Positions 12,875-64,000 of a stretch of DNA of 64,000 nucleotides are shown piece by piece (within the stretch, counting starts at the first letter, position 1; the number at the start of each line of letters is the position of its first letter). Origin of the DNA: Actinomadura rubteroloni (GTDB taxonomy: Bacteria; Actinomycetota; Actinomycetes; Streptosporangiales; Streptosporangiaceae); contig NZ_MTBP01000001.1 of NCBI RefSeq assembly GCF_002911665.1, positions 1,426,001 through 1,490,000 on the forward strand, given 5' to 3'. Made by a program: the position numbers and the translations under genes. Below the pieces are notes generated by a model. That model was not told where the DNA came from. It ran no database searches and worked only from the letters and a program-made list of their open reading frames with translations.

Positions 12875-13113
12875 TCGCGCTTCGTCTGCCGGACGCGGGC
12901 GGACTGGAGCCGGGGGATGTACCACATGGCGAACAGGCCGATCACGACGCCGGCCCCGCACACCCAGAGCCACCAGCGGTCGTCGTCGGGGAGCCCGACG
13001 ACGGCGAGGACGACCAGTGCGACGGCCCACGCGCCCGTCCCGACGGCCGCGATCTTGACGTCGTCGGTCGGCATCGGCGGCGGATCGGGCCGCCGTGCCC
13101 TCGGCTCGCTCAT
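12871..13113 (-). CDS. DUF2530 membrane protein, 80 residues
   Basis: It starts MSEPRARRPDPPPMPTDD and has two transmembrane segments, about 23-42 and 50-66 (GAWAVALVVLAVVGL and LWVCGAGVVIGLFAMWYIPR). The pattern and length match DUF2530. The C-terminus is basic and probably cytoplasmic. Function unknown. It overlaps the sacsin-like gene tail to tail by four bases. Confidence 0.85.
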   Translation of the reverse strand: MSEPRARRPDPPPMPTDDVKIAAVGTGAWAVALVVLAVVGLPDDDRWWLWVCGAGVVIGLFAMWYIPRLQSARVRQTKRD

Positions 13114-13128
13114 CGCCCGCCCCCTCGT

Positions 13129-13180
13129 CCACGGTCCCCGTCGCCGCCCAGGCTAACCGGCGGGGGTGACGGTCCCGTGG
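13129..13180. other. Imperfect hairpin upstream of DUF2530
   Basis: CCACGG (13129-13134) pairs with CCGTGG (13175-13180), and inside them CGTC/GACG and CCGCC/GGCGG can pair too. It lies in the DUF2530-MarR intergenic stretch. It could be a structured leader for either gene or chance in GC-rich DNA. Confidence 0.25.
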
Positions 13181-13279
13181 GGAGCCCCGTTCCCTGGCAC
13201 GATGGAAGGCCAGCGGGAAGAGAGGGAAGAAGTCGGACGCCGTGTGACGGTATGGCGGAATACGTCCCCGCCCGATACC

Positions 13280-13307
13280 GTTAGCAAAGGCAATGACTTC
13301 TGCTAAC
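13280..13307. promoter_or_regulatory. MarR operator candidate
   Basis: GTTAGCA (13280-13286) and TGCTAAC (13301-13307) are perfect 7-base arms with a 14-base spacer. The repeat ends 4 bases before the MarR ATG at 13312, in otherwise GC-rich DNA. This is the usual place for an autoregulatory MarR site. Confidence 0.6.
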
Positions 13308-13311
13308 GATC

Positions 13312-13773
13312 ATGACGCCATCGACCAGTGGCCGCCCGGCGGCCCCCACCCTGGCCGAGGAGCTGCGCATCTCGATCGCGCGGCTGTCCCGGCGCCTGCG
13401 CCATCTGCGCCTGGCCGAGCCGGGCACGGAGGACGAGCGCCTCTCGGTCACCCAGTTCGCCGCGCTCGCGGCCATCGAGCGGCACGGCTCGATGACGCCG
13501 GGGGAACTGGCCCAGCACGAGAAGGTCCAGCCGCCGTCGATGACGCGGGTGATCGCGTTCCTGGAGGAGCAGGGGCTCGTGAACCGGGCGCCGCACCCGA
13601 CGGACGGCCGTCAGGTGGTGATCAGTGCGACCCCGGCGGGCGGGGAGCACCTGGCGCGGGAACGCCGCCGCAAGGAGGCGTGGCTGGGCCGGAGGCTGGC
13701 GGAGCTGAGCCCGGACGAGCGGGAGGTCCTGCGCCGGGCCGCCCCGATCCTGGACAAGATCAGCCGAGCCTGA
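13312..13773 (+). CDS. MarR family transcriptional regulator
   Basis: 153 residues. The winged helix is clear: LSVTQFAALAAIERHG, then MTPGELAQHEKVQPPSMTRVI as the HTH and the wing HPTDGRQVVISAT. The flanking helices form the dimer interface. It is followed 53 bases later by an MFS pump on the same strand, a regulator-pump pair typical of drug or metabolite export. The inverted repeat at its start suggests control of both genes. The inducer is unknown. Confidence 0.93.
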   Translation: MTPSTSGRPAAPTLAEELRISIARLSRRLRHLRLAEPGTEDERLSVTQFAALAAIERHGSMTPGELAQHEKVQPPSMTRVIAFLEEQGLVNRAPHPTDGRQVVISATPAGGEHLARERRRKEAWLGRRLAELSPDEREVLRRAAPILDKISRA

Positions 13774-13826
13774 CGCCCGCCCGGGAGGTCGGTCGGGGTC
13801 GGTCGGTCGGGGCGAACAGAGCCGGC

Positions 13827-15062
13827 ATGTTCCGGTCGCTGCGCGTCCCGAACTACCGGCGGTACGCGACCGGGACGGTCGTGTCCAACACCGGCACGTG
13901 GATGCAGCGCGTCGCGCAGGACTGGCTCGTCCTGGAACTCGCGGGCAAGAGCGGCGGCACCGCGCTCGGCATCACGACCGCGATGCAGTTCCTGCCGCTG
14001 CTGCTGTTCGGGCTGTGGGGCGGCGTCCTCGCCGACCGGTACCCCAAGCGCCGGCTGTTGATGCTGACGCAGATCGCGATGGGGCTGCTCGCGCTCGTCC
14101 TCGGCGTGCTCGCCCTCACCGGCACCGCGCAGGTCTGGCACGTCTACGTGCTCGCGTTCGGCCTCGGCCTCGCGACCGTCGTGGACAACCCGGTGCGGCA
14201 GGCGTTCGTGGTCGAGATGGTCGGCCGCGAGGACGTCCCCAACGCCATCGCGCTCAACAGCGCCAGCTTCAACGGCGCCCGGCTGCTCGGCCCGGCCATC
14301 GCGGGCGTGCTCATCGCCGCGTTCGGCACCGGCCCGGTGTTCCTGGTCAACGCGGCGTCGTTCGCGGCCGTCCTCGTCGGGCTGGCGCGGATGCGGACGG
14401 ACGAGCTGCACGTCGCCGACATCGTCCCGCGCGCGAAAGGCCAGCTCATCGAGGGCCTGCGCTATGTCAAGGGCCGCCGCGACCTGTTGATGACGCTCGT
14501 GCTCATCGGGCTCGTCGCGACCTTCGGCATGAACTTCCAGATCACGATCGCGCTCGTCGCCCGGCAGGTCTTCCACACCGGGGCGTCGTCGTTCGGGCTC
14601 GCGTCGTCCATGCTGGCCGTCGGGGCGCTCACCGGCGCGCTGCTGGCCGCCCGCCGCACCGCGCGGCCCCGGCAGCGCGTGCTGCTCGGCGCCGCGGTGC
14701 TGTTCGGCGTGCTGGAGGCGCTGACCGGGCTGATGCCGTCGTACTGGTCGTTCCTGGTGCTGCTCGTCCCGACCGGCATCGCGCTGATGACGTTCGTGAC
14801 GTCGGCGAACGCGCGGATGCAGCTCGGCGTCGACCCCGCGATGCGCGGCCGCGTCATGGGCCTCTACATGTTCGTGTTCCTCGGCACCAACCCGCTCGGC
14901 GCGCCCGCCGTCGGCTGGATGGCCGAGAACTTCGGGCCCCGGTCGACGCTCGTCGCGTGCGGCGGGATCGCGCTCGGCGCCGCGCTGGCCGTCGGGCTGT
15001 TCATGGCGCCGCGCGGGTCCCTGTTGCCCACCGTCCGCCGCGTCCTGCGGCCGTCCGCCTGA
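13827..15062 (+). CDS. MFS transporter (MFS_3, EntS-like)
   Basis: 411 residues, about twelve membrane helices. It begins MFRSLRVPNYRRYATGTVVSNTGTWMQRVAQDWLVLEL, the hallmark of the MFS_3 exporters. The loop 2-3 motif is FGLWGGVLADRYPKRRLLM. A second GRVMGLYMF-like stretch sits after helix 10. It should export a small molecule across the cytoplasmic membrane using the proton gradient. The MarR gene directly upstream is the probable regulator. A GTG 24 bases earlier is also possible as the start. Confidence 0.92.
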   Translation: MFRSLRVPNYRRYATGTVVSNTGTWMQRVAQDWLVLELAGKSGGTALGITTAMQFLPLLLFGLWGGVLADRYPKRRLLMLTQIAMGLLALVLGVLALTGTAQVWHVYVLAFGLGLATVVDNPVRQAFVVEMVGREDVPNAIALNSASFNGARLLGPAIAGVLIAAFGTGPVFLVNAASFAAVLVGLARMRTDELHVADIVPRAKGQLIEGLRYVKGRRDLLMTLVLIGLVATFGMNFQITIALVARQVFHTGASSFGLASSMLAVGALTGALLAARRTARPRQRVLLGAAVLFGVLEALTGLMPSYWSFLVLLVPTGIALMTFVTSANARMQLGVDPAMRGRVMGLYMFVFLGTNPLGAPAVGWMAENFGPRSTLVACGGIALGAALAVGLFMAPRGSLLPTVRRVLRPSA

Positions 15063-15143
15063 CGGGCGGCTTGACGCTCAGTGGCCCGTGGACATCGGAC
15101 ACGGCGGGTGCGAGGCTGAGCCTGTGCCGGACCCGGAGCGTGG

Positions 15144-15737
15144 ATGAGACTGTTCGCGGCGCTCGTTCCGCCGCCCGCCGTGCTGGACGCCGTGGAGCGT
15201 TTCACCGCGCCGCTGCGCGCCGGAACACCGGACGGGTCGCCCGACCTGCGCTGGATCGGCCGTGACCTGCTCCACGTCACGCTCGCGTTCTTCGGCGACC
15301 TCGACGCCGGCGCGCTCGACGTCCTCGTCCCGAAACTGGAGCGGGCCGCCGACCGGCATCCCTGCATGCGGCTGACGCTGGCCGGGGGCGGCGCGTTCCC
15401 GCTCGGCGGCCAGCACGCCCGCGTCCTGTGGGCCGGGCTCTACGGCGACCGGCGCGCCCTCGCCGGGCTCGCCGCCGAGACCGCCGCCGCCGGGCACCAC
15501 GCGGGCGCCGCGCCCGACCACCACCGCGGCGACCAGCACCGCGCCTACCGGCCGCACCTCACGCTCGCGCGCAGCCGCGGCCCGGTGGACGTCCGCCCGC
15601 TCCTGGAACCCCTCGCCACGTTCGCGACCAAGCCGTGGACGGCCGACGCGTTCCATCTCGTCCGCAGCCACCTGCCCGGCGCCGACCGCCCGCAACCCGA
15701 GTACGAACCACTGACGACCTTCCGCCTGCGCGGCTAG
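15144..15737 (+). CDS. thpR: RNA 2',3'-cyclic phosphodiesterase (2H family)
   Basis: 197 residues. Both catalytic HxT motifs of the 2H superfamily are present: HVT at 44-46 (DLLHVTLAFFGD) and HLT at 138-140 (YRPHLTLARSRG). The N-terminal MRLFAALVPPPAVLD is characteristic of ThpR/LigT. The enzyme hydrolyses 2',3'-cyclic phosphate on RNA ends and may seal tRNA halves in reverse. The histidine-rich stretch HHAGAAPDHHRGDQH before the second motif is an unusual insertion. Its stop is next to that of the convergent gene. Confidence 0.92.
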   Translation: MRLFAALVPPPAVLDAVERFTAPLRAGTPDGSPDLRWIGRDLLHVTLAFFGDLDAGALDVLVPKLERAADRHPCMRLTLAGGGAFPLGGQHARVLWAGLYGDRRALAGLAAETAAAGHHAGAAPDHHRGDQHRAYRPHLTLARSRGPVDVRPLLEPLATFATKPWTADAFHLVRSHLPGADRPQPEYEPLTTFRLRG

Positions 15738-15738
15738 C

Positions 15739-17772
15739 TCAAAGCTCTGGCGGGGGCGGGACGGGGCGGGCTTCGTCCGGGGGGCCCCAGGGCAGGCCGT
15801 AGCGTTCGCACGCGCGGCGCAGTTCGCGCAGGTCGGGCGGGAACGTCACCTGCCGCAGGACGCGGCCGGACGGCCCCCACACGACGAGGCGCGGCATCCG
15901 GTCGCCGGACTCGTCGATGCCGACGCCGCCGACGCGCTCGCGGGCCAGGTCCCACTCGACCCGGCCGCGCCGCGTGACGACCGCGACGCCGTCCACCGAG
16001 ACCTTGAGCTGCGCGCGGTTCCGGTCGTACAGCCACGAACCGGCGAGCGCCGCGACGAGCCCGGCCGGGACGGACCAGCCCGCAGTCCGGGCGAACCCGC
16101 CGAGGTCGGGGCCGATCCACAGCGCGCCGAGCACCGCGACGACCTCGCACAGCAGCACGCTGAGCGAGGCGGCGAGGATCCGGGACCGGCGCGTCGCGTC
16201 CAGCAGGACGCCCGGCACCGGATCGGGGCGCGGCGCGGGCTCCGGCTCGGGCACCGACAGCGCCGACACGGCCGCGTGGAACGCCGCGCTCATGTAGGCG
16301 TCGTACTCGGCGTCGGTGACGGGCAGGCCCGCCTCCCGCGCCTTCTCGCGCAGGTCCGTCCGGGAGATGCGCAGGGCCGACAGGGGGGCGGCGAAGAACT
16401 CGTCGCCGTCGGTGTCGTAGAGGCGCACCCACGCGTGCCCGCTGATCGTCAGCAGCTCGACGCCGCCGATGCGGTCCTCGGGCATGCGCAGCACGACGTC
16501 GCCCGCCGCGTCCGCCCAGCCGAGGCCGCCGTCGGCGACGACGAGCCGCCCGCCGGGGACGCGCGCGAAGATGTCGGGCAGGCCGTCCACGCCGTAGTGG
16601 GGGAGCCGGGGCGGCGGCGCGCCCGGCGTGATCACCGTGTAGCCGTGCTCGTCGAGGGCGTGCGCGAGCTGGAAGGCGTCCATGCCGTGCGCGGGCAGCC
16701 GCGCGATCAGGTCCAGCGCGTGGTCGAACACGAGCACCGACAGCTCGGTCGCGCGCGGCGCCCCGGTCAGCGGGTCCGGCCGCAGCCCCGGGCCGACGAT
16801 CACCGCCGCGACGCGGGACGCCGCGACCGTGGTCCGGCCCGCGCCGCGCCGCCGGGACTCGGCCGGACGGGACCGCACGGCCAGGCCCTCGGCCGAGATC
16901 GTCCACTCGACCCGCCCGGCCGTCAGCAGCCGCCGCCGCGCCAGCAGGCCCGCCGCGCTCGCCATCAGCGCCCAGCAGCCCGCCGCGACGCGGTCGCCGA
17001 TCGCGTCCGCGCCGTCCACCGCGACCCGCGCGACCATCGCCACGCCGATCACCGCCGCCAGCACGCCGAGCGCGACGATCCGGTGGCGGCTCGGCCGCGG
17101 CGCGGGCGACGCCAGCCGCACCGGCCGCGCGCCGCGCTCGGGATCGGGGACGGTCGCGGGCTCGTGCGCCGCCGCCAGCAGCCGCGCCTCCTGGTCCAGC
17201 AGCCGCTGCTCGGCGGCCTGGTCGCGGGGCAGCGGGCCGAGGCCGGTGAGGACGGTGTCACCCGTCGGAAAGCGAGGGCTCTCGTCGGCGGCGGGGTCGA
17301 GGAGGTCGGCGGAGTCGCCGTCCAGCACATGGACCGGGACGCCGAGCCGCCGCGCCGCGACGAACAGCGCGATCGGCTCCATGCCGAGCGTCGCCAGCGG
17401 GCCGGCCGCCGTCCGGCCGAACTTGTGGAAGACGGTCAGGACGTCGTCGCCCGTCGTGATCGCCAGCGCCTCGATCCGGGACCGCTCGTACCGGACCAGG
17501 CTCAGCCCGCCCGGCCCGACGCGCTCCAGGCCGTCCGCCGACAGCCGCCAGTACGGCCGGTGCCGGCGCGGACGCCCGTCCGGGACGGCGCCGAGCGCCC
17601 ACGGGACCGCGGCCACGACGGTGATCAGCCCGGCCCACAGCCACACCGGGCGGATCGGCGGCAGCGCGAGCACCACCGCGAGCAGCGTGAACGGCCCCGC
17701 CGCGACCGGCCGCCACCGTCCACCCGGCCCGCGCAGGCCCGCAAGCTCATGCTCCACAGTCCGCATCCTCAC
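15739..17772 (-). CDS. Large membrane protein with repeated PH-like modules
   Basis: 677 residues. I see no named enzyme domain. Three or four similar modules alternate with hydrophobic hairpins: WRLSADGLERVGPGG near residue 75, WTISAEGLAVRSRP, VVADGGLGWADAAGDVV, and LKVSVDGVAVVTRRGRVEWDL near 600. Each is followed by a strand ending in a hydrophobic acidic turn, like bacterial PH-domain proteins. Membrane pairs lie at about 25-55, 235-280 and 530-575. A scaffold or sensor role at the membrane is a guess. The start is either the GTG at 17772 or the ATG at 17766. Confidence 0.7.
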   Translation of the reverse strand: MRMRTVEHELAGLRGPGGRWRPVAAGPFTLLAVVLALPPIRPVWLWAGLITVVAAVPWALGAVPDGRPRRHRPYWRLSADGLERVGPGGLSLVRYERSRIEALAITTGDDVLTVFHKFGRTAAGPLATLGMEPIALFVAARRLGVPVHVLDGDSADLLDPAADESPRFPTGDTVLTGLGPLPRDQAAEQRLLDQEARLLAAAHEPATVPDPERGARPVRLASPAPRPSRHRIVALGVLAAVIGVAMVARVAVDGADAIGDRVAAGCWALMASAAGLLARRRLLTAGRVEWTISAEGLAVRSRPAESRRRGAGRTTVAASRVAAVIVGPGLRPDPLTGAPRATELSVLVFDHALDLIARLPAHGMDAFQLAHALDEHGYTVITPGAPPPRLPHYGVDGLPDIFARVPGGRLVVADGGLGWADAAGDVVLRMPEDRIGGVELLTISGHAWVRLYDTDGDEFFAAPLSALRISRTDLREKAREAGLPVTDAEYDAYMSAAFHAAVSALSVPEPEPAPRPDPVPGVLLDATRRSRILAASLSVLLCEVVAVLGALWIGPDLGGFARTAGWSVPAGLVAALAGSWLYDRNRAQLKVSVDGVAVVTRRGRVEWDLARERVGGVGIDESGDRMPRLVVWGPSGRVLRQVTFPPDLRELRRACERYGLPWGPPDEARPVPPPPEL

Positions 17773-54872: not shown

Positions 54873-56522
54873 TCACTTGCAGAGCTTCTTGGTGGCGGTG
54901 TCGGTCTGGAGCGTGTTCGCGGACGGCGTCGCCGCCGGGGCCGGGGCGGACCCGAGCTTCGGCTTCTGCGCGCCGTCCCAGTCGGAGCCGACGAGCACCT
55001 GCACGCGCGACCCGAGTGCGGCGACCTTCTTGGTCTTCACGCCGGGCAGCGCGGCGGCGAGGGTCTTCGCGGCGTCCTCCTGACCGGGGCCGTACTGGAT
55101 CTGCGTGTGGGCGAGGCCGCGCCGCGCGACGCCCGGCACGACGACCGTCCGGAACCCGACGTCGCGCAGGTCCCCGGCGGCGCGCGCCGCGAGGCCCTGC
55201 GTCCCGACCGCGTTCAGCACCCGCACCGTGACGGCGGACGGCCGGACGGTCGGCAGATCGGACGCGGGCGCGGACGGCGACGCCGTCGGGCTCGCCTTCG
55301 GCTCCGGCGCGAGCGGCCGGTCCCGGCGGAGGCGGGAGAACAGGTCGTCGGCGCGGTGGTCGTCCCACAGGACCGTGGACTGCGGGGTCGCCGCGTTCCA
55401 CAGGATCGCGTTGTAGTTGTCGTTGGCGAGCGGCACCTTCGCGAACGTGACGCTGTCGGTGGACAGGTCCTGCATCTGGTTCGCGAGCTTCGGCAGGTTC
55501 TTGGCCAGCTTGTCGTCGACCCGGAGCGACTTCAGCGCGGCGTTGAGGAACCGCGCCGACTTCACCGGGTCGCTCAGCGTCTTGGACGACAGCGCCTGCT
55601 TCATCATCTGCGCCAGGAGCTGCTGCTGCCGGTCGATGCGGCCGAGGTCGCTGCCGCCGGTGAGCGTGTACCGGGCGCGGGAGTAGCCGAGCGCCTTCAG
55701 GCCGTCCAGATGGGACTTGCCGGCGGGCAGCTTCAGGCCGCTCTTGGCGTCGTCGATGGGCTGCTCGGTGCAGACGTCCACGCCGCCGAGCGCGTCCACC
55801 ATGTTCACGAAGCCGTAGAAGTTGACCTCGACGTAGTGGTCGATCGGGACGCCGGTCGCCTGCTTGATCGTCTTGACCGTCAGGTCCGGGCCGCCGAACT
55901 GGTACGCCCAGGTCAGCTTGCCGCGCCGGGCCGGGACCTGCGCGCCCTTCGCGCCCTCGGTGCCGTTGGACCGGTGACTCGGGATCATGACGTTGGAGTC
56001 GCGCGGCAGGCTCACCACCGACACCTTGTCGTGGTCCTGGGAGATGTGGACGAGCAGCATCGTGTCCGACCGCTCGCCCGCGTCGTGCCCGAGCTTTGCG
56101 GCGTGCTGCTGCTCGCGGGTCAGGCCCTCGCGGCGGTCCACGCCCGCGACGAGGATCGTCATCGCGCCCTTCGGCCCGCCGTCGGAGCCGAGCCCGCCGA
56201 CCGACACCCGGTCGATCGCGCCGGTCACATAGTTCTGGAACGCCCACGCGCCGCCCGCCGTGAGCAGCACGAACGCCGACATCACGCCCGTCGTCGTGAG
56301 GAACCGGCGCTGCCGCCGGGCCGCGACCGCCGCGCGCGGGCTGAGCGTCGGGCCCGGCCGCCGCGGGCCGCGCGGCGTCTCCACCGACACCCGGGGCGCG
56401 GGCGCGCCGTCGATCGTGACGCCCTCGCCCGGGGCGTCGTCGGCGGGCGCGCCGCCCGGACGCGGCCGGAAGTAGCGCTCCAGCGGGTCGGCGCCGTCCC
56501 CCGCGTCGTGCCGGTCTGCCAT
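54873..56522 (-). CDS. LytR-CpsA-Psr (LCP) family glycopolymer ligase with LytR_C domain
   Basis: 549 residues from the ATG at 56522. A cytoplasmic Pro-rich N-terminus of about 75 residues is followed by one membrane helix (76-96). The LCP domain (about 115-290) has VAGVDRREG, RSDTMLLVHI, VVSLPRDSNVMIP, VDALGGVDV and the late YSRARYTLTGGSDLGRIDRQQQLL with conserved arginines. A LytR_C domain lies near 445-530. LCP enzymes attach undecaprenyl-linked glycopolymers to peptidoglycan outside the cell. Fits with ugd, GtrA and the ExoA-like glycosyltransferase around it. Confidence 0.94.
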   Translation of the reverse strand: MADRHDAGDGADPLERYFRPRPGGAPADDAPGEGVTIDGAPAPRVSVETPRGPRRPGPTLSPRAAVAARRQRRFLTTTGVMSAFVLLTAGGAWAFQNYVTGAIDRVSVGGLGSDGGPKGAMTILVAGVDRREGLTREQQHAAKLGHDAGERSDTMLLVHISQDHDKVSVVSLPRDSNVMIPSHRSNGTEGAKGAQVPARRGKLTWAYQFGGPDLTVKTIKQATGVPIDHYVEVNFYGFVNMVDALGGVDVCTEQPIDDAKSGLKLPAGKSHLDGLKALGYSRARYTLTGGSDLGRIDRQQQLLAQMMKQALSSKTLSDPVKSARFLNAALKSLRVDDKLAKNLPKLANQMQDLSTDSVTFAKVPLANDNYNAILWNAATPQSTVLWDDHRADDLFSRLRRDRPLAPEPKASPTASPSAPASDLPTVRPSAVTVRVLNAVGTQGLAARAAGDLRDVGFRTVVVPGVARRGLAHTQIQYGPGQEDAAKTLAAALPGVKTKKVAALGSRVQVLVGSDWDGAQKPKLGSAPAPAATPSANTLQTDTATKKLCK

Positions 56523-56684
56523 GCCGCCCGCCGCCTCCTGGAATCGCCGGTCGTGGAACGCGAACGCCCACCACTTTAAGGTGGGGAAGGGCGGACCGTT
56601 CGTTAGCCAGGGCCTGTGTCCCCTTCTTCCGGTAACGTTGCGCCGTCTCGACCGCACCCGGCGATGCCGGGGCCGTGGACGCCA

Positions 56685-57782
56685 GTGAGCAAGAGAGGAA
56701 TGGGGCGAACCGCGCCCGCGAGTATGAATCCGTCTCCCCACGCGCAGAGCGCCCACCCGGACCGGGAACCGGGCGCAGGGCCGGCCGCGGGCGACCGCAC
56801 CTGGCCCGCCGTTTCGGTGATCATGCCCGTCCTCAATGAGGAGCGTCATCTCACCGACGCCGTCCGGCGCATCCTCGACCAGGACTATCCGGGCGAACTG
56901 GAACTCGTGCTGGCCGTCGGGCCGTCCCGGGACCGCACGGAAGAGATCGCGTCCCGGCTGTCGGCCGAGGATCCGCGGCTCGTCGTCGTCCCGAACCCGA
57001 CCGGACGCACCCCGCAGGGCCTCAACATCGCGATCAAGGCTTCCCAGTACTCGATCATCGTCCGGGTGGACGGGCACTCGCTGCTGCCCGGCGACTACGT
57101 CCGCGCGGCGGTCGAGACGATGGAGGAGACCGGGGCGGACAACGTCGGCGGGATCATGGCCGCCGAGGGGACGACCCCGTTCGAGAAGGCCGTCGCGCGC
57201 GCGATGACGTCCAAGCTCGGCGTCGGCAACGCCCGCTTCCACACCGGCGGCGAGGCCGGCGAGGTCGAGACCGTCTACCTCGGGACGTTCCGCCGCAGCG
57301 CGCTGGAGCGCGTCGGTTATTACGACGAGACGTTCGTCCGCGCGCAGGACTGGGAGATGAACCACCGCATCCGGCAGACGGGCGGGCGGATCTTCTTCAC
57401 GCCCCGGATGCGCGTGACGTACCGTCCCCGGCCGAACCTGCGCGCGCTCGCCCGGCAGTACTTCCACACCGGCCGCTGGCGGCGCGTCGTCGGCCGCGAG
57501 CACCAGGGGACGCTGAACGTCCGCTACCTCGCCCCGCCGTTCGCCGTCGCCGGGATCATCGTCGGGACGGTCGCCGGCGCGGCCGGGTTCTGGCCCGCGT
57601 TCGTCCTGCCCGGCGGCTACGCTCTCGCGATCATCGCGGGCGCGGCCGTGGAGGGCCGGGGGCTGCCGGTGTCGGCGTGGCTGCGGCTGCCGCTCGTCCT
57701 CGCGACGATGCACCTGTCGTGGGGCGTGGGCTTCCTGACGAGCCCGCCGCGCCTCGGCCAGCCGACTCCCGCCAAACCCTGA
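56685..57782 (+). CDS. Family 2 glycosyltransferase (ExoA-like)
   Basis: About 365 residues from the GTG at 56685; ATGs at 56700 or 56725 are possible. VSVIMPVLNEERHLTDAVRR is the nucleotide-binding start, RVDGHSLLPGDY carries the DxD-like DGH, and VETVYLGTFRRSALERVGYYDE plus AQDWEMNHRIRQTGG supplies the acceptor side and ED-like catalytic region. Two C-terminal membrane helices (VAGIIVGTVAGAAGFW, LPGGYALAIIAGAA) anchor it. Similar to ExoA of succinoglycan synthesis. Divergent from the LCP gene. Confidence 0.9.
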   Translation: MSKRGMGRTAPASMNPSPHAQSAHPDREPGAGPAAGDRTWPAVSVIMPVLNEERHLTDAVRRILDQDYPGELELVLAVGPSRDRTEEIASRLSAEDPRLVVVPNPTGRTPQGLNIAIKASQYSIIVRVDGHSLLPGDYVRAAVETMEETGADNVGGIMAAEGTTPFEKAVARAMTSKLGVGNARFHTGGEAGEVETVYLGTFRRSALERVGYYDETFVRAQDWEMNHRIRQTGGRIFFTPRMRVTYRPRPNLRALARQYFHTGRWRRVVGREHQGTLNVRYLAPPFAVAGIIVGTVAGAAGFWPAFVLPGGYALAIIAGAAVEGRGLPVSAWLRLPLVLATMHLSWGVGFLTSPPRLGQPTPAKP

Positions 57783-57856: not shown

Positions 57857-58657
57857 ATGTCGAACGGAGCGCGGCACGCCCTGGGCGTCGTCGCCGGTGT
57901 CCTGGTGACGGTGGTCAGCCTCGGCTGCATGCTCTTCGCGCTCGACCGGGCGCAGCGCATGTACGTGTACTTCCGGCTGGGGGCCGGTGACAAGGCGCTG
58001 GTGACGCTCGCGATCGTCGTCGCGGGGCTGCTGCTCGGGCTCGCGGCGGGGTCGCGGCTGTCGCCGTTCGCGTCGCTGGTGCCCGGCGTCGTGTACGGGA
58101 CGGTCGGGCTGGTGTACGTCCTCGCGCCGACGCAGGCGCTGCACTGGTTCATGCACGTCAAGCCCGCGCGGTACGCCCGCGGGTTCACCACGCTCGGGAC
58201 GCTCGGGGTCTTCCTGCTGCTCGGCACGGCGCTGTTCGTCGCGTCGCTGCCGCCGTCGCGCTGGCAGGGCCGCCGCCGTCCGGCGCACGGCGGGCCGCTG
58301 CCGGGCGGACGTCCGCTGGCGCAGCCCCCGCACCAGGCCCGGCACCAGGCACCGCCGCCCGCGCTGCCGCAGTACGGCCCGCCGCGCGCGCCCGAGGCCC
58401 CGCAGCCCTACGCGCCGCCGTCCGCGCCCGGCGCGTACACGCCGCCGTCCGGCGCGCCCGAGGGACAGCCGTTCACGCCGCCCGCGTCCGACGCGCCGCC
58501 GCCCTACGCGCCGCCGTCGGTCCCGCCCGGCCCGCCGCAGCCGTACACGCCGCCGTCCGCGTCCGAGGCGCCGCCCGCCGCGCCGCCCGCCGGGCGCAAG
58601 CCCGGGGACGACGAGGAGCCCGGCGAGTGGACGCGGATGTACGGGGGGAACCGCTAG
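57857..58657 (+). CDS. Membrane protein with proline-rich tail
   Basis: 266 residues. Four membrane helices in the first 130 (LGVVAGVLVTVVSLGCMLFAL, VTLAIVVAGLLLGLAAG, VPGVVYGTVGLVYVLAP, LGTLGVFLLLGTALFVASL), then a 130-residue Pro/Ala-rich tail with repeats of the type YAPPS, YTPPS. A conserved VTLAIVV stretch follows a YFRLGAGDKAL loop. The tail is probably cytoplasmic and disordered. No enzyme motif. Its TAG shares the bases CTAG with the convergent stop. Confidence 0.75.
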   Translation: MSNGARHALGVVAGVLVTVVSLGCMLFALDRAQRMYVYFRLGAGDKALVTLAIVVAGLLLGLAAGSRLSPFASLVPGVVYGTVGLVYVLAPTQALHWFMHVKPARYARGFTTLGTLGVFLLLGTALFVASLPPSRWQGRRRPAHGGPLPGGRPLAQPPHQARHQAPPPALPQYGPPRAPEAPQPYAPPSAPGAYTPPSGAPEGQPFTPPASDAPPPYAPPSVPPGPPQPYTPPSASEAPPAAPPAGRKPGDDEEPGEWTRMYGGNR

Positions 58658-59406
58658 CGGCCGAGCGCCGCGAGCACGCCGGGGATCTCGTTGACGACCA
58701 TCGCGTCCACCCCGGCGTCGGCGTAGCGCGCGGCCTCGGCCGCCTTCGGGCACCAGACCATGACGTCGAGCCCGGCCTCGTGCGCGGTCGCGACGTTGTG
58801 CTCCAGCGACCGCAGCCGCGTGTCGGGGTGGTCGAACCCGCAGGACGCCGTGTGCAGCGCGACGGCCTGGAGCCCGAGCCCGGCGGCGGCCGACACGCCG
58901 TGCCAGAGCGGGAACCGCAGCCAGGTCAGCAGCCCGAGCGGCACCCCGGGCAGTTCGTCGCGCAGGAAGGCCAGAAGGCCGGGGTCGAACGACGTCACCA
59001 TCAGCCGGCGCCGCGCGGCCTCGCGGCGCAGCAGCGGCAGCAGGAGCGCGCCGGTCCGCCGGGACGGGGCGTCCACGGCGTCCTCCAGGACGGTCTTGAC
59101 GTCCAGATCCAGCGCGATGTCCGTCGGCGTCGCCGCGAAGATCTCCTCCAGCGACGGCAGCCCGGACGCCTCCGCGCTGCCCTCCACGAGGAAGCTCCCG
59201 TCCGGCCCGGTCGGGTCGTGCCGCAGGACGAGCCGGTCGTCGGACGTCCGGGTCACGTCGATCTCGACCCACGACAGCCCGGCCTCGGCGGCGGCGAGGA
59301 TCGAGGCGAGGGTGTTCTCGGCGACCGTTCCGCGCCCGGGGACCGGGACGTCGCCCGAGCCCGCGCCGCGGTGGCCGATGACGGTGGGGGTCTGCTCGAA
59401 GATCAC
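58654..59406 (-). CDS. Glycerophosphodiester phosphodiesterase
   Basis: 250 residues from the GTG at 59406, overlapping the previous stop in a GTGA junction. VIGHRGAGSGDVPV has the HRGxx motif with the catalytic His, ENTLASIL gives the metal Glu, and VEIDVTRTSDDRLVLRHD the Glu/Asp pair with a second His. No signal peptide, so it acts in the cytoplasm. It cleaves glycerophosphodiesters to glycerol 3-phosphate, or here possibly to a related polyol phosphate. Translationally coupled to the cytidylyltransferase. Confidence 0.9.
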   Translation of the reverse strand: MIFEQTPTVIGHRGAGSGDVPVPGRGTVAENTLASILAAAEAGLSWVEIDVTRTSDDRLVLRHDPTGPDGSFLVEGSAEASGLPSLEEIFAATPTDIALDLDVKTVLEDAVDAPSRRTGALLLPLLRREAARRRLMVTSFDPGLLAFLRDELPGVPLGLLTWLRFPLWHGVSAAAGLGLQAVALHTASCGFDHPDTRLRSLEHNVATAHEAGLDVMVWCPKAAEAARYADAGVDAMVVNEIPGVLAALGR

Positions 59407-60101
59407 ACGGTCTCCGTCTCGGTGGCGAGGTGTTCGGCGATGACGATGTCGAGGGGGTGGGTGACCTTGAGGTTGCGCTCGTCGCCCGCCACGACGCGGA
59501 TCGGGACGTCCGGCAGGTAGCGGTGGACGATGCCGCAGTCGTCGGTGGCGTGCAGCGCCGGGTCGGCGAGCGCCCGGTCGTAGGCGGCGCGGATGAGGCC
59601 GAGCCGGAAACCCTGCGGCGTCTGGAACCGGACGAGCGTGTGCCGCGCGGGCATCGCGGCGACCGTCCCGTCGGCGACCTCCACGATCGTGTCGGCGGAG
59701 GGGACTCCGACCGCGACCGCGTCCGCCTCGTCCAGGGCGGCCAGCACCCGGTCGATGGTGGCGGCGTCCACGAACGGGCGGGCCGCGTCGTGGAACAGGA
59801 CCTTCGCGTCGTCGTGCTCGGCGGCCAGCGCGGTGAGCGCCGCGACGGTCGACGCCGTCCGCGTGTCGCCGCCCTCGACCACGGCGGCGACCTTCCCGTA
59901 CGGGGCGGTGAGCGCGGCGGCGGCGCGCAGGTGACCGGCGGCCATGACGACGACGACCGCATCCACGCCGGGATGGGCGTCGAACGCCGCGACGGCGAGG
60001 GACAGGATGGGCCGCCCGCCGACCTCCAGGAACTGTTTGGGCCGCCCCGCGCCCATCCGCTGCCCGATCCCGCCGGCGAGCACCACGGCGACCGTTCGCA
60101 T
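59403..60101 (-). CDS. ispD: IspD-family cytidylyltransferase
   Basis: 232 residues from the ATG at 60101. AVVLAGGIGQRMGAGRPKQFLEVGGRPIL is the CTP-binding start (LAGGxGxRMG-x4-PKQ), FHDAARPFVDAATI and TLVRFQTPQGFRLGLI follow. IspD makes CDP-methylerythritol; TarI and DarP-like relatives make CDP-ribitol and share the same motifs. There is no ispF next to it, and the gene pairs with polyol-phosphate genes, so a CDP-polyol product is a fair alternative. It is divergent from the CDP-alcohol phosphotransferase. Confidence 0.85.
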   Translation of the reverse strand: MRTVAVVLAGGIGQRMGAGRPKQFLEVGGRPILSLAVAAFDAHPGVDAVVVVMAAGHLRAAAALTAPYGKVAAVVEGGDTRTASTVAALTALAAEHDDAKVLFHDAARPFVDAATIDRVLAALDEADAVAVGVPSADTIVEVADGTVAAMPARHTLVRFQTPQGFRLGLIRAAYDRALADPALHATDDCGIVHRYLPDVPIRVVAGDERNLKVTHPLDIVIAEHLATETETV

Positions 60102-60180
60102 CGACATCTCCCGGGACCCTCGTGACCGAACCGCTACGCTGTGCAACCGTGTGCGACGAGACCGCCGGGCGGAGGCGCCG

Positions 60181-61548
60181 ATGACCGTGGCCGTGATCGT
60201 CGCGACCGCGCGGGACGCCGACCCGGCCGCGCTGACCGGCCTGGTGGACGCCCTCGCCGACAGGCTCGCCGCCCTCAACGTACCGGACCAGCGCGTCCTG
60301 GCCCGTCCGGACGTCGCACCCGCGCTGCGCGCCGTCGGCCGGGCGGTGACCGAGTGTGCCGGCGAGACCGCCGTCCTGCGGGAGATCGCGCGGCTGGCGC
60401 GGACGGCGCGCGACGGGCTCGCGGTGCTGCCCGGCGACCTCGCGACGGGCGGCGAGGTGCTGGCCCGGCTGCTGGCGGCGCGGGGCGCGGGCGCGCTGAC
60501 CGTCCCGCCCGGCGACGGGACGGTCCCGGTCCGCACGAGCGCGGGCCTCGTGGTCGCGGCGGGCTCGGCGACGCACCGCGTGACGGCCCCCGACGGCGGC
60601 TTCCCCGGCGCGCTGTACGTCTCCGGCGACCGGACGGGCTTCCTCGCCGTCCTCGCCGACCGCATCGCGGGGCTCGTGGACGACGGCGTGCTGCGCGTCC
60701 AGGACCCGGTTCCGCTGCTGCTCGTGGGGCTCGTCCGGGCGGGGGAGCCGGTGACCGCGTGCCGGGCGGGCGCGCTGCCCTGCCTGCGCCCGCGCACCGG
60801 GGACGCGGCGGACGCGGCGCTGCGGGCCGTCGCCGCCGCCGACGAGGACGCCGCCCGGCTCGCCGCCGCAGTCCGCCGCGACGACGGGTCGCTGCCCGCC
60901 CGCGCGGTCGGCGCGGTCAGCCCGCGCTTCGTCCGGTGGGCGGCCGGACGGGACCTGACGCCGCACGCCGTCACGGCCATGTCGGCGGTCGCGGCGGCGC
61001 TGGCCGCGCTCTGGTTCTCCGGCGGCGACCGCGCCGGGCTCGTCGTCGGCGGCGCGCTGCTGCTCGTCGCGTTCGCGCTGGACTGCGCGGACGGCCAGCT
61101 CGCCCGCTACACCGGCACCGCCACGCCGTTCGGCGCCTGGCTGGACGCCACGGCCGACCGGGGCAAGGAGGCCCTCGCCTACGCGGGCCTGGCGGCCGGC
61201 GCCGCCGACGCCGGGGTGTGGCGGCTCGCGGTGGCCGCGCTGGTCCTGCCCGCCGTCCGGGACCTGATCTCCGTCCGCGCGCCGCGCGGCCCTCGCGCGC
61301 GGTCGATCGTGGACCCGTTCGACGCGAGCGTCCCCGAGCCTGGCGGGGACTGGCTGCGGCGGCTGATCGTCCTGCCGTCGGGGGAGCGGTTCGTGCTGGT
61401 CGCGGTGCTCGCGGCGGCGACGGACGCGCGCCGCGCGCTCGCGGTGCTGGTCGCCTGGAACGCCGTCGCGGCGGGCTACGCGCTCGCAGCGCGGCTCCTC
61501 CGCTCCGCGCCCCGCCGCCCGTCCACCGCACGGATGGCCGTCCGATGA
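60181..61548 (+). CDS. CDP-alcohol phosphotransferase with N-terminal NTP-transferase-like region
   Basis: 455 residues. Residues 250-455 are the membrane enzyme: DCADGQLARYTGTATPFGAWLDATAD holds the full D-G-x2-A-R-x8-G-x3-D-x3-D signature, followed by five or six helices. Residues 1-220 open TVAVIVATARDADPAALTGLVDALADRL and look like a nucleotidyltransferase fold without a clear GGxGxR loop. It would transfer a phosphoalcohol from a CDP-alcohol to a second alcohol. The layout recalls the archaeal IPCT-DIPPS fusion. Coupled to the next gene (ATGA). Confidence 0.88.
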   Translation: MTVAVIVATARDADPAALTGLVDALADRLAALNVPDQRVLARPDVAPALRAVGRAVTECAGETAVLREIARLARTARDGLAVLPGDLATGGEVLARLLAARGAGALTVPPGDGTVPVRTSAGLVVAAGSATHRVTAPDGGFPGALYVSGDRTGFLAVLADRIAGLVDDGVLRVQDPVPLLLVGLVRAGEPVTACRAGALPCLRPRTGDAADAALRAVAAADEDAARLAAAVRRDDGSLPARAVGAVSPRFVRWAAGRDLTPHAVTAMSAVAAALAALWFSGGDRAGLVVGGALLLVAFALDCADGQLARYTGTATPFGAWLDATADRGKEALAYAGLAAGAADAGVWRLAVAALVLPAVRDLISVRAPRGPRARSIVDPFDASVPEPGGDWLRRLIVLPSGERFVLVAVLAAATDARRALAVLVAWNAVAAGYALAARLLRSAPRRPSTARMAVR

Positions 61549-62174
61549 CCGCCCCCGCCGCCGTGACCGCTGCCGCGCCTGGTGTGGTGTCGCGGGAGCG
61601 GGACGACGGGTTGCTCTGCCGGGCGCTCGGGCATGCGGCGCGCGGGCAGATCCCGCCGCTGCCCGGTGCGCTCGTCGCGCTGGCCGCGACGGCGGTGCTG
61701 CTCGCCGCCGGGATCGGGGCCGAGCACGGGGTCGCGCTGTTCGCGCCCGTCGTCGTCCTGCTGCTCACCGGCCCGGCGGCCGGGCATGCCCATGATGGGC
61801 GCATCGACTGGCTTGTCCCGCCCATCGTGCGCGCGATCGAGTATGGTTACCTCGCTGTCCTGGGGTTCGCACAGGGCGTTCGGCCGCCGTTCATCTTCGT
61901 GCTGCTCGCCGTGCTCGCGTTCCACCACCACGACATCGTGTACCGCGCCCGCCAGGGGCTCCGGACGCCGGAGCGGGCCGTCCTCGCCGGACTCGGCTGG
62001 GAGGGCCGGATGCTCGCGGCGGCCTTCGCGGGCCTCTTCGGACATCTTCCGTTCGCGTACGCTTCCCTCGCCGTCTACCTTGGCGTGGTGTTCGCCGTCG
62101 CGAGCGTCCGCACCTGGGCGCGGACCGGTCGCGGCGACGGCGTGACGATCGACCGGGAGGAAGGGAAAGCATGA
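61545..62174 (+). CDS. Small multi-helix membrane protein (DUF5941-like)
   Basis: 209 residues. ATG at 61545 overlaps the preceding stop. Hydrophobic segments: ALVALAATAVLLAAGIGAE, GVALFAPVVVLLLTG, IVRAIEYGYLAVLGFAQG, FIFVLLAVLAFHHHDIVYRAR and a last pair near 175-200. FHHHDIVYR and LGWEGRMLAAAFAG recall DUF5941 proteins, which in Streptomyces I believe are fused to the phosphotransferase. It may be a partner of that enzyme. Its TGA overlaps the start of the next gene. Confidence 0.65.
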   Translation: MTAPAAVTAAAPGVVSRERDDGLLCRALGHAARGQIPPLPGALVALAATAVLLAAGIGAEHGVALFAPVVVLLLTGPAAGHAHDGRIDWLVPPIVRAIEYGYLAVLGFAQGVRPPFIFVLLAVLAFHHHDIVYRARQGLRTPERAVLAGLGWEGRMLAAAFAGLFGHLPFAYASLAVYLGVVFAVASVRTWARTGRGDGVTIDREEGKA

Positions 62175-62902
62175 TCGGGATGGTGCTGGCGGCGGGAGCC
62201 GGCCGCAGACTACGGCCCTACACCGACACGCTCCCGAAGGCGCTCGTGCCGGTCGACGGCGACACCACCATCCTCGACATCGCCCTCGGCAACCTGTCCG
62301 CGGTCGGTCTCACCGAGATCGTGATCGTCGTCGGGTACTGCGCGCAGGCCGTCGAGGAGCGCAAGGCGGCGCTGGAGGAGCGCTACGGCGTGTCCATCAC
62401 GCTCGTCCACAACGACAAGGCCGAGGAGTGGAACAACGCCTACTCCATGTGGCTCGCCCGGGAGTACTTCGCCGAGGGCGTCCTCATGGTGAACGGCGAC
62501 ACCGTCCACCCGGTCGGCGTCGAGAAGACCCTGCTCGCCAACCGCGGCCCGGACATCCTGCTCGCGGTGGACGACGTCAAGAAGCTCGCCGACGAGGAGA
62601 TGAAGGTCATCCTCGACGGCGCCGGCCACCTGAGCCGGATCACCAAGCTCATGGACCCGGCGGACGCGGCCGGCGAGTACATCGGCGCCACGCTCATCGA
62701 GCCCGGCGCCGCCGAGGCCCTCGCCGACGCCCTCAAGGCGACGTGGGAGGCCGACCCCGACCAGTACTACGAGGACGGCTACCAGGTCTACGTCGGCCGG
62801 GGCGCGAAGATCGCCGTCGCGCCCATCGGGGACGTGGCGTGGGTCGAGGTCGACAACCACGACGACCTGGCGAAGGCCCGCACGATCGCGAAGACCTACT
62901 GA
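62171..62902 (+). CDS. LicC/GlmU-type nucleotidyltransferase (probably cytidylyl- or NDP-forming)
   Basis: 243 residues. MIGMVLAAGAGRRLRPYTDTLPKALVPVDGD is the NTP-binding start (GxGxR...PK), VMVNGDTVHPVG carries the metal Asp (GD), and a late VEVDNHDDLAKA the second. Best resemblance is to phosphocholine cytidylyltransferase LicC and related small NTP transferases. It activates an alcohol phosphate with a nucleotide. Start overlaps the DUF5941-like gene, so three genes are coupled. Confidence 0.88.
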   Translation: MIGMVLAAGAGRRLRPYTDTLPKALVPVDGDTTILDIALGNLSAVGLTEIVIVVGYCAQAVEERKAALEERYGVSITLVHNDKAEEWNNAYSMWLAREYFAEGVLMVNGDTVHPVGVEKTLLANRGPDILLAVDDVKKLADEEMKVILDGAGHLSRITKLMDPADAAGEYIGATLIEPGAAEALADALKATWEADPDQYYEDGYQVYVGRGAKIAVAPIGDVAWVEVDNHDDLAKARTIAKTY

Positions 62903-62907
62903 CCCGC

Positions 62908-62933
62908 GTCCGGGGCGCCGCCGCGTCCCGGAC
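62908..62933 (+). other. Hairpin between the nucleotidyltransferase and dehydrogenase genes
   Basis: GTCCGGG (62908-62914) and CCCGGAC (62927-62933) form a perfect 7-bp stem with a 12-base loop. It may attenuate the operon or be chance. Confidence 0.3.
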
Positions 62934-62980
62934 CGGACCGCACGGACGACGTTCCCGGCCGCGCGCCGAGAGGGAGGCCC

Positions 62981-64000
62981 ATGCCCCTGCTGACACGGAT
63001 GCTCACCGCGCCGCTGTCCATCGACGTCCGGCGCGGCGCCGTGGTCGGCCTCGGTGAGCTGCTCGCCGACCGCCGCATCGCCACCGAGGGCCGCGTCGCC
63101 ATCGCGGTCGGCCCCGGCCAGGGCGAGAAGATCGCCGACGACGTTCGCGCGTCGCTCTCCACCTGCGAGGTCTTCCAGGTGGAGAGCGGGACGGTCGACG
63201 CGGCCGTCGCGCTCGGCTCCAAGCTGCGCGCCGGGTCGTACGAGGCCGTCGTCGGGATCGGCGGCGGGCGCACCATCGACGCCACCAAGTACGCCGCGAC
63301 CCTGTCGGGCATCCCGATGGTGTCGGTCGCGACGAACCTGTCCCACGACGGGATCTGCTCGCCGGTCGCGTCCCTCACCCACGAGAAGGGCAAGGGGTCG
63401 TTCGGCGTCGTCATGCCGCTCGCGATGGTCGTGGACCTCGACTACGTCCACGCGGCGCCGCCCCGGCTCGTCCGGGCCGGGATCGGGGACGTCGTCAGCA
63501 ACCTGTCCGCCGTGGAGGACTGGCTGCTCGCGGCCGAGAACGTGGGCGAGCAGATCGACCGGATGGCGCTGACCGTCGCGCGGACCGCCGCCGAGGCGCT
63601 GCTGCACCAGCCCGGGACCATCGACTCCGACCGCTTCCTGACCGTCCTCGCCGAGGGCCTGGTCCTGTCGGGGCTGGCGATGTCGTTCGCGGGCGACTCG
63701 CGGCCCGCGTCCGGCGGCGACCACGAGATCCTGCACGCGATCGACCGGCTCTACCCCGGCACGGCCAACCACGGCGAGCTGGCGGGGATCGGCGCGGCGT
63801 TCTGCTACCACCTGCGCGCGACGCACCTCGGCGACGGCGCGGACCGCCTCGCCGACATCATCGCCTGCCTGGACCGGCACGGCCTGCCGAAGCTGCCCGA
63901 GGACGTCGGCCTCACCGCCGAGGAGTTCACGGCGGCCGTCCGGTACGCCCCGCGCACCCGCCCCGGCCGCTATACGATCTTGGAGCATCTCGACCTCGAC
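62981..64000 (+). CDS. sn-Glycerol-1-phosphate dehydrogenase-like enzyme, partial (cut at right edge)
   Basis: 340 residues in the window, start ATG at 62981 behind GAGGGAGG. VVGIGGGRTIDATKYAA is the NAD(P)-binding GGGxxxD motif, and MVSVATNLSHDGICSPVASLTH is the signature of G1P dehydrogenase (EgsA/AraM). Metal ligands are the Asp in GIGDVVSN, the His in SGGDHEILHAID and the His in ANHGELAGIG. It would reduce dihydroxyacetone phosphate to glycerol 1-phosphate, the archaeal enantiomer also used by a few bacteria. The C-terminus lies beyond 64000. Confidence 0.88.
   Translation, partial: MPLLTRMLTAPLSIDVRRGAVVGLGELLADRRIATEGRVAIAVGPGQGEKIADDVRASLSTCEVFQVESGTVDAAVALGSKLRAGSYEAVVGIGGGRTIDATKYAATLSGIPMVSVATNLSHDGICSPVASLTHEKGKGSFGVVMPLAMVVDLDYVHAAPPRLVRAGIGDVVSNLSAVEDWLLAAENVGEQIDRMALTVARTAAEALLHQPGTIDSDRFLTVLAEGLVLSGLAMSFAGDSRPASGGDHEILHAIDRLYPGTANHGELAGIGAAFCYHLRATHLGDGADRLADIIACLDRHGLPKLPEDVGLTAEEFTAAVRYAPRTRPGRYTILEHLDLD

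Follow-up and report, generated by a model that had tools for sequence, protein, structure and literature searches.

A G1PDH-like dehydrogenase and nucleotidyltransferase cassette with two CDP-alcohol phosphotransferases in Actinomadura rubteroloni: a predicted CDP-1-glycerol route to teichoic-acid-type polymers

The stretch of Actinomadura rubteroloni DNA analysed here (64,000 nucleotides of contig NZ_MTBP01000001.1, hereafter the window) ends in a compact group of genes around a homologue of glycerol-1-phosphate dehydrogenase (G1PDH) and the nucleotidyltransferase (NTase) encoded directly 5′ of it. On the forward strand lie PT1 (60181-61548), which encodes a degenerate IspD-fold N-terminal domain joined to a CDP-alcohol phosphotransferase domain (PF01066, 40.3 bits); a DUF5941 gene (61545-62174; PF19365, 89.4 bits); the LicC-like NTase gene (62171-62902; PF00483, 50.5 bits); and the gene for the G1PDH-like protein, an iron-dependent alcohol dehydrogenase resembling EgsA/AraM (62981-64054; PF13685, 111.6 bits), of whose 357 codons 340 are inside the window and which ends 54 bases beyond it. 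Neighbouring genes overlap by 4 bases at 61545-61548 and 62171-62174, and a 78-base gap stands 5′ of the G1PDH-like gene. Divergent from this series, on the reverse strand, are a GDPD-family phosphodiesterase gene (58654-59406; PF03009, 77.8 bits) and an overlapping IspD/TarI-family cytidylyltransferase gene (59403-60107; PF01128, 185.9 bits; TIGR00453, 192.6 bits). Profile searches and translations thus recovered every gene that an earlier note on the window had named, PT1 by way of PF01066 and its motif. When the locus was followed past position 64000, as that note had proposed, the operon went on with a second CDP-alcohol phosphotransferase gene, PT2 (L004:10032-10883), and a GT2 glycosyltransferase gene, GT2b (L004:10894-11823), beyond which an open reading frame (ORF) on the other strand reads as helD. 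The conserved order of the module is PT1 - DUF5941 - NTase - G1PDH-like - PT2 - GT2. A scan for promoters and terminators found nothing.

The grouping around the G1PDH-like gene is not due to chance. In 50 named loci chosen by G1PDH similarity, with membership defined by a BLAST score of at least 50 bits and at least 35% coverage, NTase, PT2 and GT2b each lie beside the G1PDH-like gene in all 50. The other members are IspD-like (48), GDPD (44), a LytR-CpsA-Psr (LCP) protein (43; in the window at 54873-56480, reverse strand, PF03816, 166.9 bits), a further GT2 glycosyltransferase, GT2a (43; 56616-57782, forward strand, PF00535, 71.9 bits), DUF5941 (39) and PT1 (30), counts to be read in the light of the fast divergence of PT1 and of the several loci that end at contig ends. 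Proteins of the LCP family attach glycopolymers to peptidoglycan. The G1PDH of Actinomadura rayongensis is 99% identical to the protein studied here. Farther away, in G056, a genome taken for Streptomyces, the order is fused PT1-DUF5941, NTase, G1PDH, PT2 and GT2b, followed by ORFs that by eye, not by hidden Markov model, read as ABC permease, ABC ATPase and hpnC/hpnD. A passage of PMC13118837 describes Streptomyces synteny that agrees with this order, and a 2026 paper already ties synteny of this sort in Streptomyces to teichoic acid.

We then considered 296 genomes of the class, which were searched with PT2, G1PDH, TIGR01518 (TarD), PF04464 (TagF) and NTase. G1PDH matches below 400 bits, partial pieces (G152, G302, G303, the second G306 match and two G118 pieces) and PT2 matches below 240 bits were set aside before counting, which left 75 G1PDH matches in 72 genomes and 74 NTase matches in 72 genomes. 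For 72 of the 74 NTase matches a G1PDH gene lies directly 3′ on the same strand (at most 300 bp away); of the two unpaired NTases, that of G136 lies where a contig ends and that of G118 shares its contig with a non-adjacent G1PDH. PT2 is found within 100 bp of G1PDH for 59 of the 75 matches and within 15 kb for 3 more, and the remaining 13 have no strong PT2 nearby. This strict pairing, together with the operon of CDP-alcohol phosphotransferases, makes a CDP-glycerol-1-phosphate-type donor the natural reading. The CDP-activated glycerol-1-phosphate suggested in the earlier note was therefore upheld as far as gene context is concerned; the activity of the dehydrogenase and its stereochemistry are what we infer from that context.

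The G1PDH-like protein scores 242.4 bits with NCBIfam PRK00843 (next family, 60.3 bits) and does not reach the equivalog cut-off of 413, so that it is classed as G1PDH-like and not as a PRK00843 equivalog. Its best PDB match is 3ce9, named glycerol dehydrogenase (E = 4.9e-43), followed by the G1PDHs 4rgq, 4rfl and 5fb3 (E = 9.3e-40 to 9.5e-36), and its Asp-His-His motifs and SRPASG signature match 3ce9 and 4rgq in alignments. The motifs with D123, H248 and H264, presumably the metal ligands, are all kept in 111 of the 120 homologues listed (here and below, motif counts refer to 120 listed proteins, out of 5626 found for G1PDH, 127 for PT1 and 2341 for PT2). The nearest PDB chain to the NTase is the CTP:phosphocholine cytidylyltransferase LicC (1jyk, E = 6.6e-15), and the motif AAGAGRRLRPYTDTLPKAL is intact. 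The dehydrogenase is predicted to reduce dihydroxyacetone phosphate (DHAP) to sn-glycerol-1-phosphate, and the NTase is predicted to be a CTP:glycerol-1-phosphate cytidylyltransferase, which would couple this product with CTP to give CDP-1-glycerol.

The substrate of the two enzymes could instead be some other polyol phosphate or ketose phosphate, in which case the same polymers would receive a different CDP- or NDP-polyol. The equivalog shortfall and the name of 3ce9 would agree with this, as would the broad substrate range of the NTase family (LicC, AglF, IPCT and others) and the different NTases found at similar loci (L113-L115). Nevertheless, the protein retains the motifs of G1PDH around SRPASGxxH and HGE, and the PF04464 family of TagF-type polymerases, whose link to the cassette is described below, is named for CDP-glycerol, though ribitol enzymes also belong to it. 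We regard a change of polyol as decidedly unlikely. The loci L113, L114 and L115 are themselves PT1/PT2 clusters with no G1PDH match, and their LicC-like NTase (28-30% identity) is perhaps for yet another polyol or a choline-type head group.

An archaeal-type ether lipid is another conceivable product: like AraM in Bacillus, the G1PDH would then provide the glycerol-1-phosphate from which prenyl-glyceryl phosphates are made. The dehydrogenase indeed belongs by profile to one enzyme family with Bacillus subtilis AraM and archaeal EgsA; a passage of PMC5059525 places a Streptomyces sequence among bacterial G1PDHs, and one of PMC6431249 holds archaeal-like lipids possible in Streptomyces on the basis of G1PDH, GGGPS and DGGGPS. 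However, a search that covered this genome alone returned no PF01884 (PcrB/GGGPS) match, and an ether lipid would leave the pairing of the dehydrogenase with a nucleotidyltransferase unexplained. The Bacillus route was hence set aside for this genome, and we consider an ether-lipid product highly improbable.

The class of product was suggested by the distribution of teichoic-acid polymerases. PF04464 was observed in 68 of the 71 genomes with both cassette genes and in 48 of the 225 others (at genus level, 28 of the 29 genera with a cassette and 24 of the 86 without one have it). TarD-like matches of at least 100 bits, a threshold of our own choice (the curated TIGR01518 cut-off is passed by only 3 genomes), were seen in no cassette genome (0 of 71); 22 genomes outside this group have one, among them 14 of the 48 that hold PF04464 but lack the cassette. 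Counted over PF04464 genera, the figures are 0 of 28 and 5 of 24 (p = 0.016). TIGR01518 matches below 100 bits were set aside in 33 of 55 genomes, including 11 of the 71 with the cassette. In A. rubteroloni no TIGR01518 match was found at 1e-10, the NTase belonging to PF00483 instead, and three PF04464 matches exceed the cut-off. These correspond to three large proteins with N-termini that read as GT2, two of them in tandem (L146:8600-12091 and 12287-15829; L147:8973-12524), and they are candidate users of the donor.

Physical linkage was observed as well. G1PDH and PF04464 genes lie at most 15 kb apart in at least five cases (G075, G090, G107, G172 and G308), and in some genomes the NTase-G1PDH pair adjoins TagG/TagH-like and TagF genes. 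The order in L109, by Pfam, is NTase, G1PDH, ABC permease, ABC ATPase and a GT2-PF04464 fusion (336.7 bits), and that in L119 is LCP, GT2a, GDPD, NTase, G1PDH, two ABC-like ORFs, PT1, PT2, GT2b and a GT2-PF04464 fusion (325.9 bits). In L106 a further CDP-alcohol phosphotransferase gene (32.7 bits) comes after the cassette. Two genomes from the genus of G056, G202 and G308, have a second NTase-G1PDH cassette immediately 5′ of rplU and obgE; these two copies are located at L110:7801-9599, with rne on the other side, and at L111:8426-9565, with galU on the other side and the NTase ending just before. In PMC13274773, rplU/rpmA served as anchors for the wall teichoic acid (WTA) locus of Streptomyces griseus, with TarIJ and TagF beside them. 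IspD fusions to a short-chain dehydrogenase/reductase (SDR), which have the TarIJ architecture, lie near PT2 in L121 and beside PT1 in L124, which also holds a cassette. Taken together, these contexts suggest that exchangeable donor modules may serve one kind of polymer system. Since TagF co-occurs with the cassette and TagG/TagH-like and LCP genes are its neighbours, a teichoic-acid-type product can be proposed, where the earlier note knew of no bacterial product proven for this gene set.

The phosphotransferases were analyzed next. PT1 gave no Pfam match in the single-protein scan, the PF01066 match being reached separately, and no match in a PDB sequence search; its translation holds the CDP-alcohol phosphotransferase motif D1xxD2GxxAR...GxxxD3xxxD4, and 119 of the 120 homologues listed have an Asp at position D4. 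In a model of the fused homologue P0171, residues 1-168 match the IspD fold and residues 1-395 match AF2299. A GxGxR sequence within the first 60 residues is present in only 1 of the 120, so that 119 lack the nucleotidyltransferase motif. DUF5941, split from PT1 here, is fused to it in G056 and in many homologues, and a model of the phosphotransferase domain with DUF5941 aligns with eukaryotic CHPT1/CEPT1 over 308-315 residues at 10-12% identity. PT1 and DUF5941 thus probably form a single CHPT1/CEPT1-like phosphotransferase, of which DUF5941 would be the C-terminal half; this reading is based on a structural comparison in which only four PDB entries cover that half and such parts were barely tested. 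The "partner" role given to it in the earlier note, that of a separate enzyme, was dropped after this alignment. No paper on DUF5941 was found in the literature searched.

PT2 keeps the fold and D1-D3, and D4 is replaced by His in all 120 close homologues listed; in more distant loci the position is His in 17 of 18 copies and Ala in G056. PT2 can therefore be described as a subfamily of CDP-alcohol phosphotransferases without the fourth catalytic Asp. A passage of PMC6506517 deals with the role of D4 as the presumed catalytic base, and judging from the replacement PT2 may work differently from the canonical enzymes. PT1-type and PT2-type motifs occur together in 11 of the 25 loci scanned.

The CHPT1/CEPT1-like PT1-DUF5941 would also allow a mainly lipid route, in which CDP-1-glycerol and diacylglycerol or a glycolipid would directly give phosphatidylglycerol-type head groups or lipoteichoic anchors. 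The handedness would be suitable, sn-1 glycerol being that of natural phosphatidylglycerol. However, among the 13 G1PDH matches with no strong PT2 nearby is L109, with its ABC and TagF-type genes, and in L121, which has no G1PDH, PT2 lies near the TarIJ-like fusion, which points to the use of CDP-ribitol in that locus. We judge the lipid route unlikely. A soluble phosphodiester could also be envisaged if the phosphotransferases link CDP-glycerol with either inositol phosphate or glycerol phosphate, in the manner of the archaeal synthesis of di-myo-inositol phosphate phosphate (DIPP) or glycerophosphoinositol. PT1 shares with Archaeoglobus AF2299 and IPCT-DIPPS a cytidylyltransferase-fold N-terminal domain followed by a CDP-alcohol phosphotransferase domain, PT2 has a weak match to archaetidylinositol phosphate synthase (38.8 bits), and a passage of PMC8262930 mentions CDP-1-Gro in archaeal glycerophosphoinositol synthesis. 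In contrast to these enzymes, the N-terminal domain of PT1 is degenerate, with its motif lost as described above, and the DUF5941 extension is added; moreover, genes for wall polymers (LCP, GT2, ABC exporter, TagF) recur around the module. A soluble solute is, in our opinion, very unlikely.

We propose that the CDP-1-glycerol made by the cassette would replace the CDP-3-glycerol made by TarD and would feed TagF-type polymerases, here the three PF04464 proteins encoded elsewhere in the genome, for the synthesis of a wall or lipoteichoic polymer of the teichoic-acid type. PT1-DUF5941, CHPT1-like and with a canonical motif, and PT2, with an atypical one, would then, in an anchoring or priming step, pass polyol phosphate from a CDP-polyol on to a lipid acceptor in the membrane; the acceptor and the order of these steps are those that we infer. 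Predicted from sequence comparison, this pathway has in our estimate somewhat better than an even chance of being right. In its donor logic it resembles the TarD/TagD-TagF WTA system of Bacillus subtilis 168, and TagF-type, ABC exporter and LCP genes are present in related clusters; it differs in that the donor is predicted to come from a G1PDH-like protein and a LicC-fold NTase, with sn-1 stereochemistry, and TarD-like genes are missing as counted above. With the TarIJ system of S. griseus and others, which makes CDP-ribitol, it shares the pairing of a dehydrogenase with a cytidylyltransferase, whereas the protein families and the predicted polyol are different.

Several observations weigh against this proposal. 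The G1PDH-like protein scores under the PRK00843 equivalog cut-off, and 36 genomes carry PT2 but no G1PDH, so that PT2 is not specific to glycerol-1-phosphate. The weak TIGR01518 matches of the 11 cassette genomes (49.7-68 bits) were taken for other nucleotidyltransferases. The co-occurrence with PF04464 is clustered phylogenetically and the statistics ignore relatedness, and PF04464 was not found in three cassette genomes (G137, G199 and G282); in one of these (L108, G137) the scanned neighbours are GT4 and a GH5-like protein, and in L107 the cassette adjoins a GlfT2-like transferase and ABC genes, not TagF. In A. rubteroloni the PF04464 genes lie far from the module, and no TagG/TagH genes were noticed beside it when the ORFs of L004/L005 and L146/L147 were read by eye, a reading that did not extend to a genome-wide search. 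Finally, a passage of PMC13274773 describes the WTA of S. griseus as of the ribitol type with terminal glycerol phosphate, so that the presence of a TagF-type gene does not by itself imply a polymer of glycerol.

The literature searched yielded no paper in which this pathway is set out, and a passage of PMC8262930 (2021) considers CDP-1-glycerol likely absent from bacteria. In Bacillus, as stated in part of PMC7086022, WTA is sn-3 and lipoteichoic acid (LTA) is sn-1, and GlpQ distinguishes them; a further published passage reports that CDP-1-Gro is accepted by one TagF-like polymerase and not by another. As given in passages of PMC3196553, Streptomyces makes poly(glycerol phosphate) LTA and has no clear LtaS orthologues, the authors favouring machinery shared with WTA and posing LTA synthesis in actinobacteria devoid of LtaS as an open question. 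A bolder extension, which we put forward only tentatively and think less probable than the pathway itself, is that the 71 cassette genomes among the 296, about a quarter of the class sample and including Streptomyces, make CDP-sn-1-glycerol and build a mirror-image poly(glycerol phosphate), with the CHPT1-like PT1-DUF5941 charging membrane lipids. If the cassette does make CDP-1-glycerol, the teichoic acids of Streptomyces and its relatives would be opposite in handedness to Bacillus WTA, which would affect hydrolases that read stereochemistry, such as GlpQ; on the bolder reading, direct charging of lipids by PT1-DUF5941 would explain LTA in bacteria that lack LtaS. The purpose of many bacterial G1PDHs would, given such a donor, be explained with no recourse to lipids of the archaeal type, and arguments on the lipid divide that draw on the distribution of G1PDH would be affected. 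The gene set is common to many soil actinobacteria.

The two reverse-strand genes were kept outside the core of the module. The phosphodiesterase of the earlier note is present, here and in most of the named loci (44 of 50), and its role is uncertain. As for the two nucleotidyltransferases that the note had assigned to one pathway, the NTase at 62171-62902 does belong to the pair, but the IspD-like gene does not fit: no IspD-like or GDPD match was seen in the G056 stretch around the module (L047, L055), and the IspD-like protein is the only PF01128 match above 40 bits in the A. rubteroloni genome. It exceeds the TIGR00453 cut-off of 181.3 and remains below the stricter PRK00155.2-3 cut-off (155.9 against 253), and the difference between its scores with the IspD model and with the ribitol model places it between the two groups. 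In a tree it groups with the domains of IspD-SDR fusions and not with canonical IspDs (94/95, under the mark for firm support, and with long branches). Among 18 genomes of the same genus, 15 have one strong IspD match and three (G005, G008 and G012) have a second, of about 465 residues, which is the length of an IspD-SDR fusion, the SDR part being assumed from that length. The window protein probably performs the IspD step of the methylerythritol phosphate (MEP) pathway, and it may make a CDP-polyol instead or as well. The ispF gene adjoins an ORF reading as carD, with no ispD between them; with the sole strong IspD grouping with TarIJ-like domains, this is a possible case of MEP gene displacement. 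The genome also has a third CDP-alcohol phosphotransferase gene about 18 kb past the end of the window (L005:7861-8865 and L005:9118-10359), accompanied by an acyltransferase-3 gene and an LCP-like ORF.

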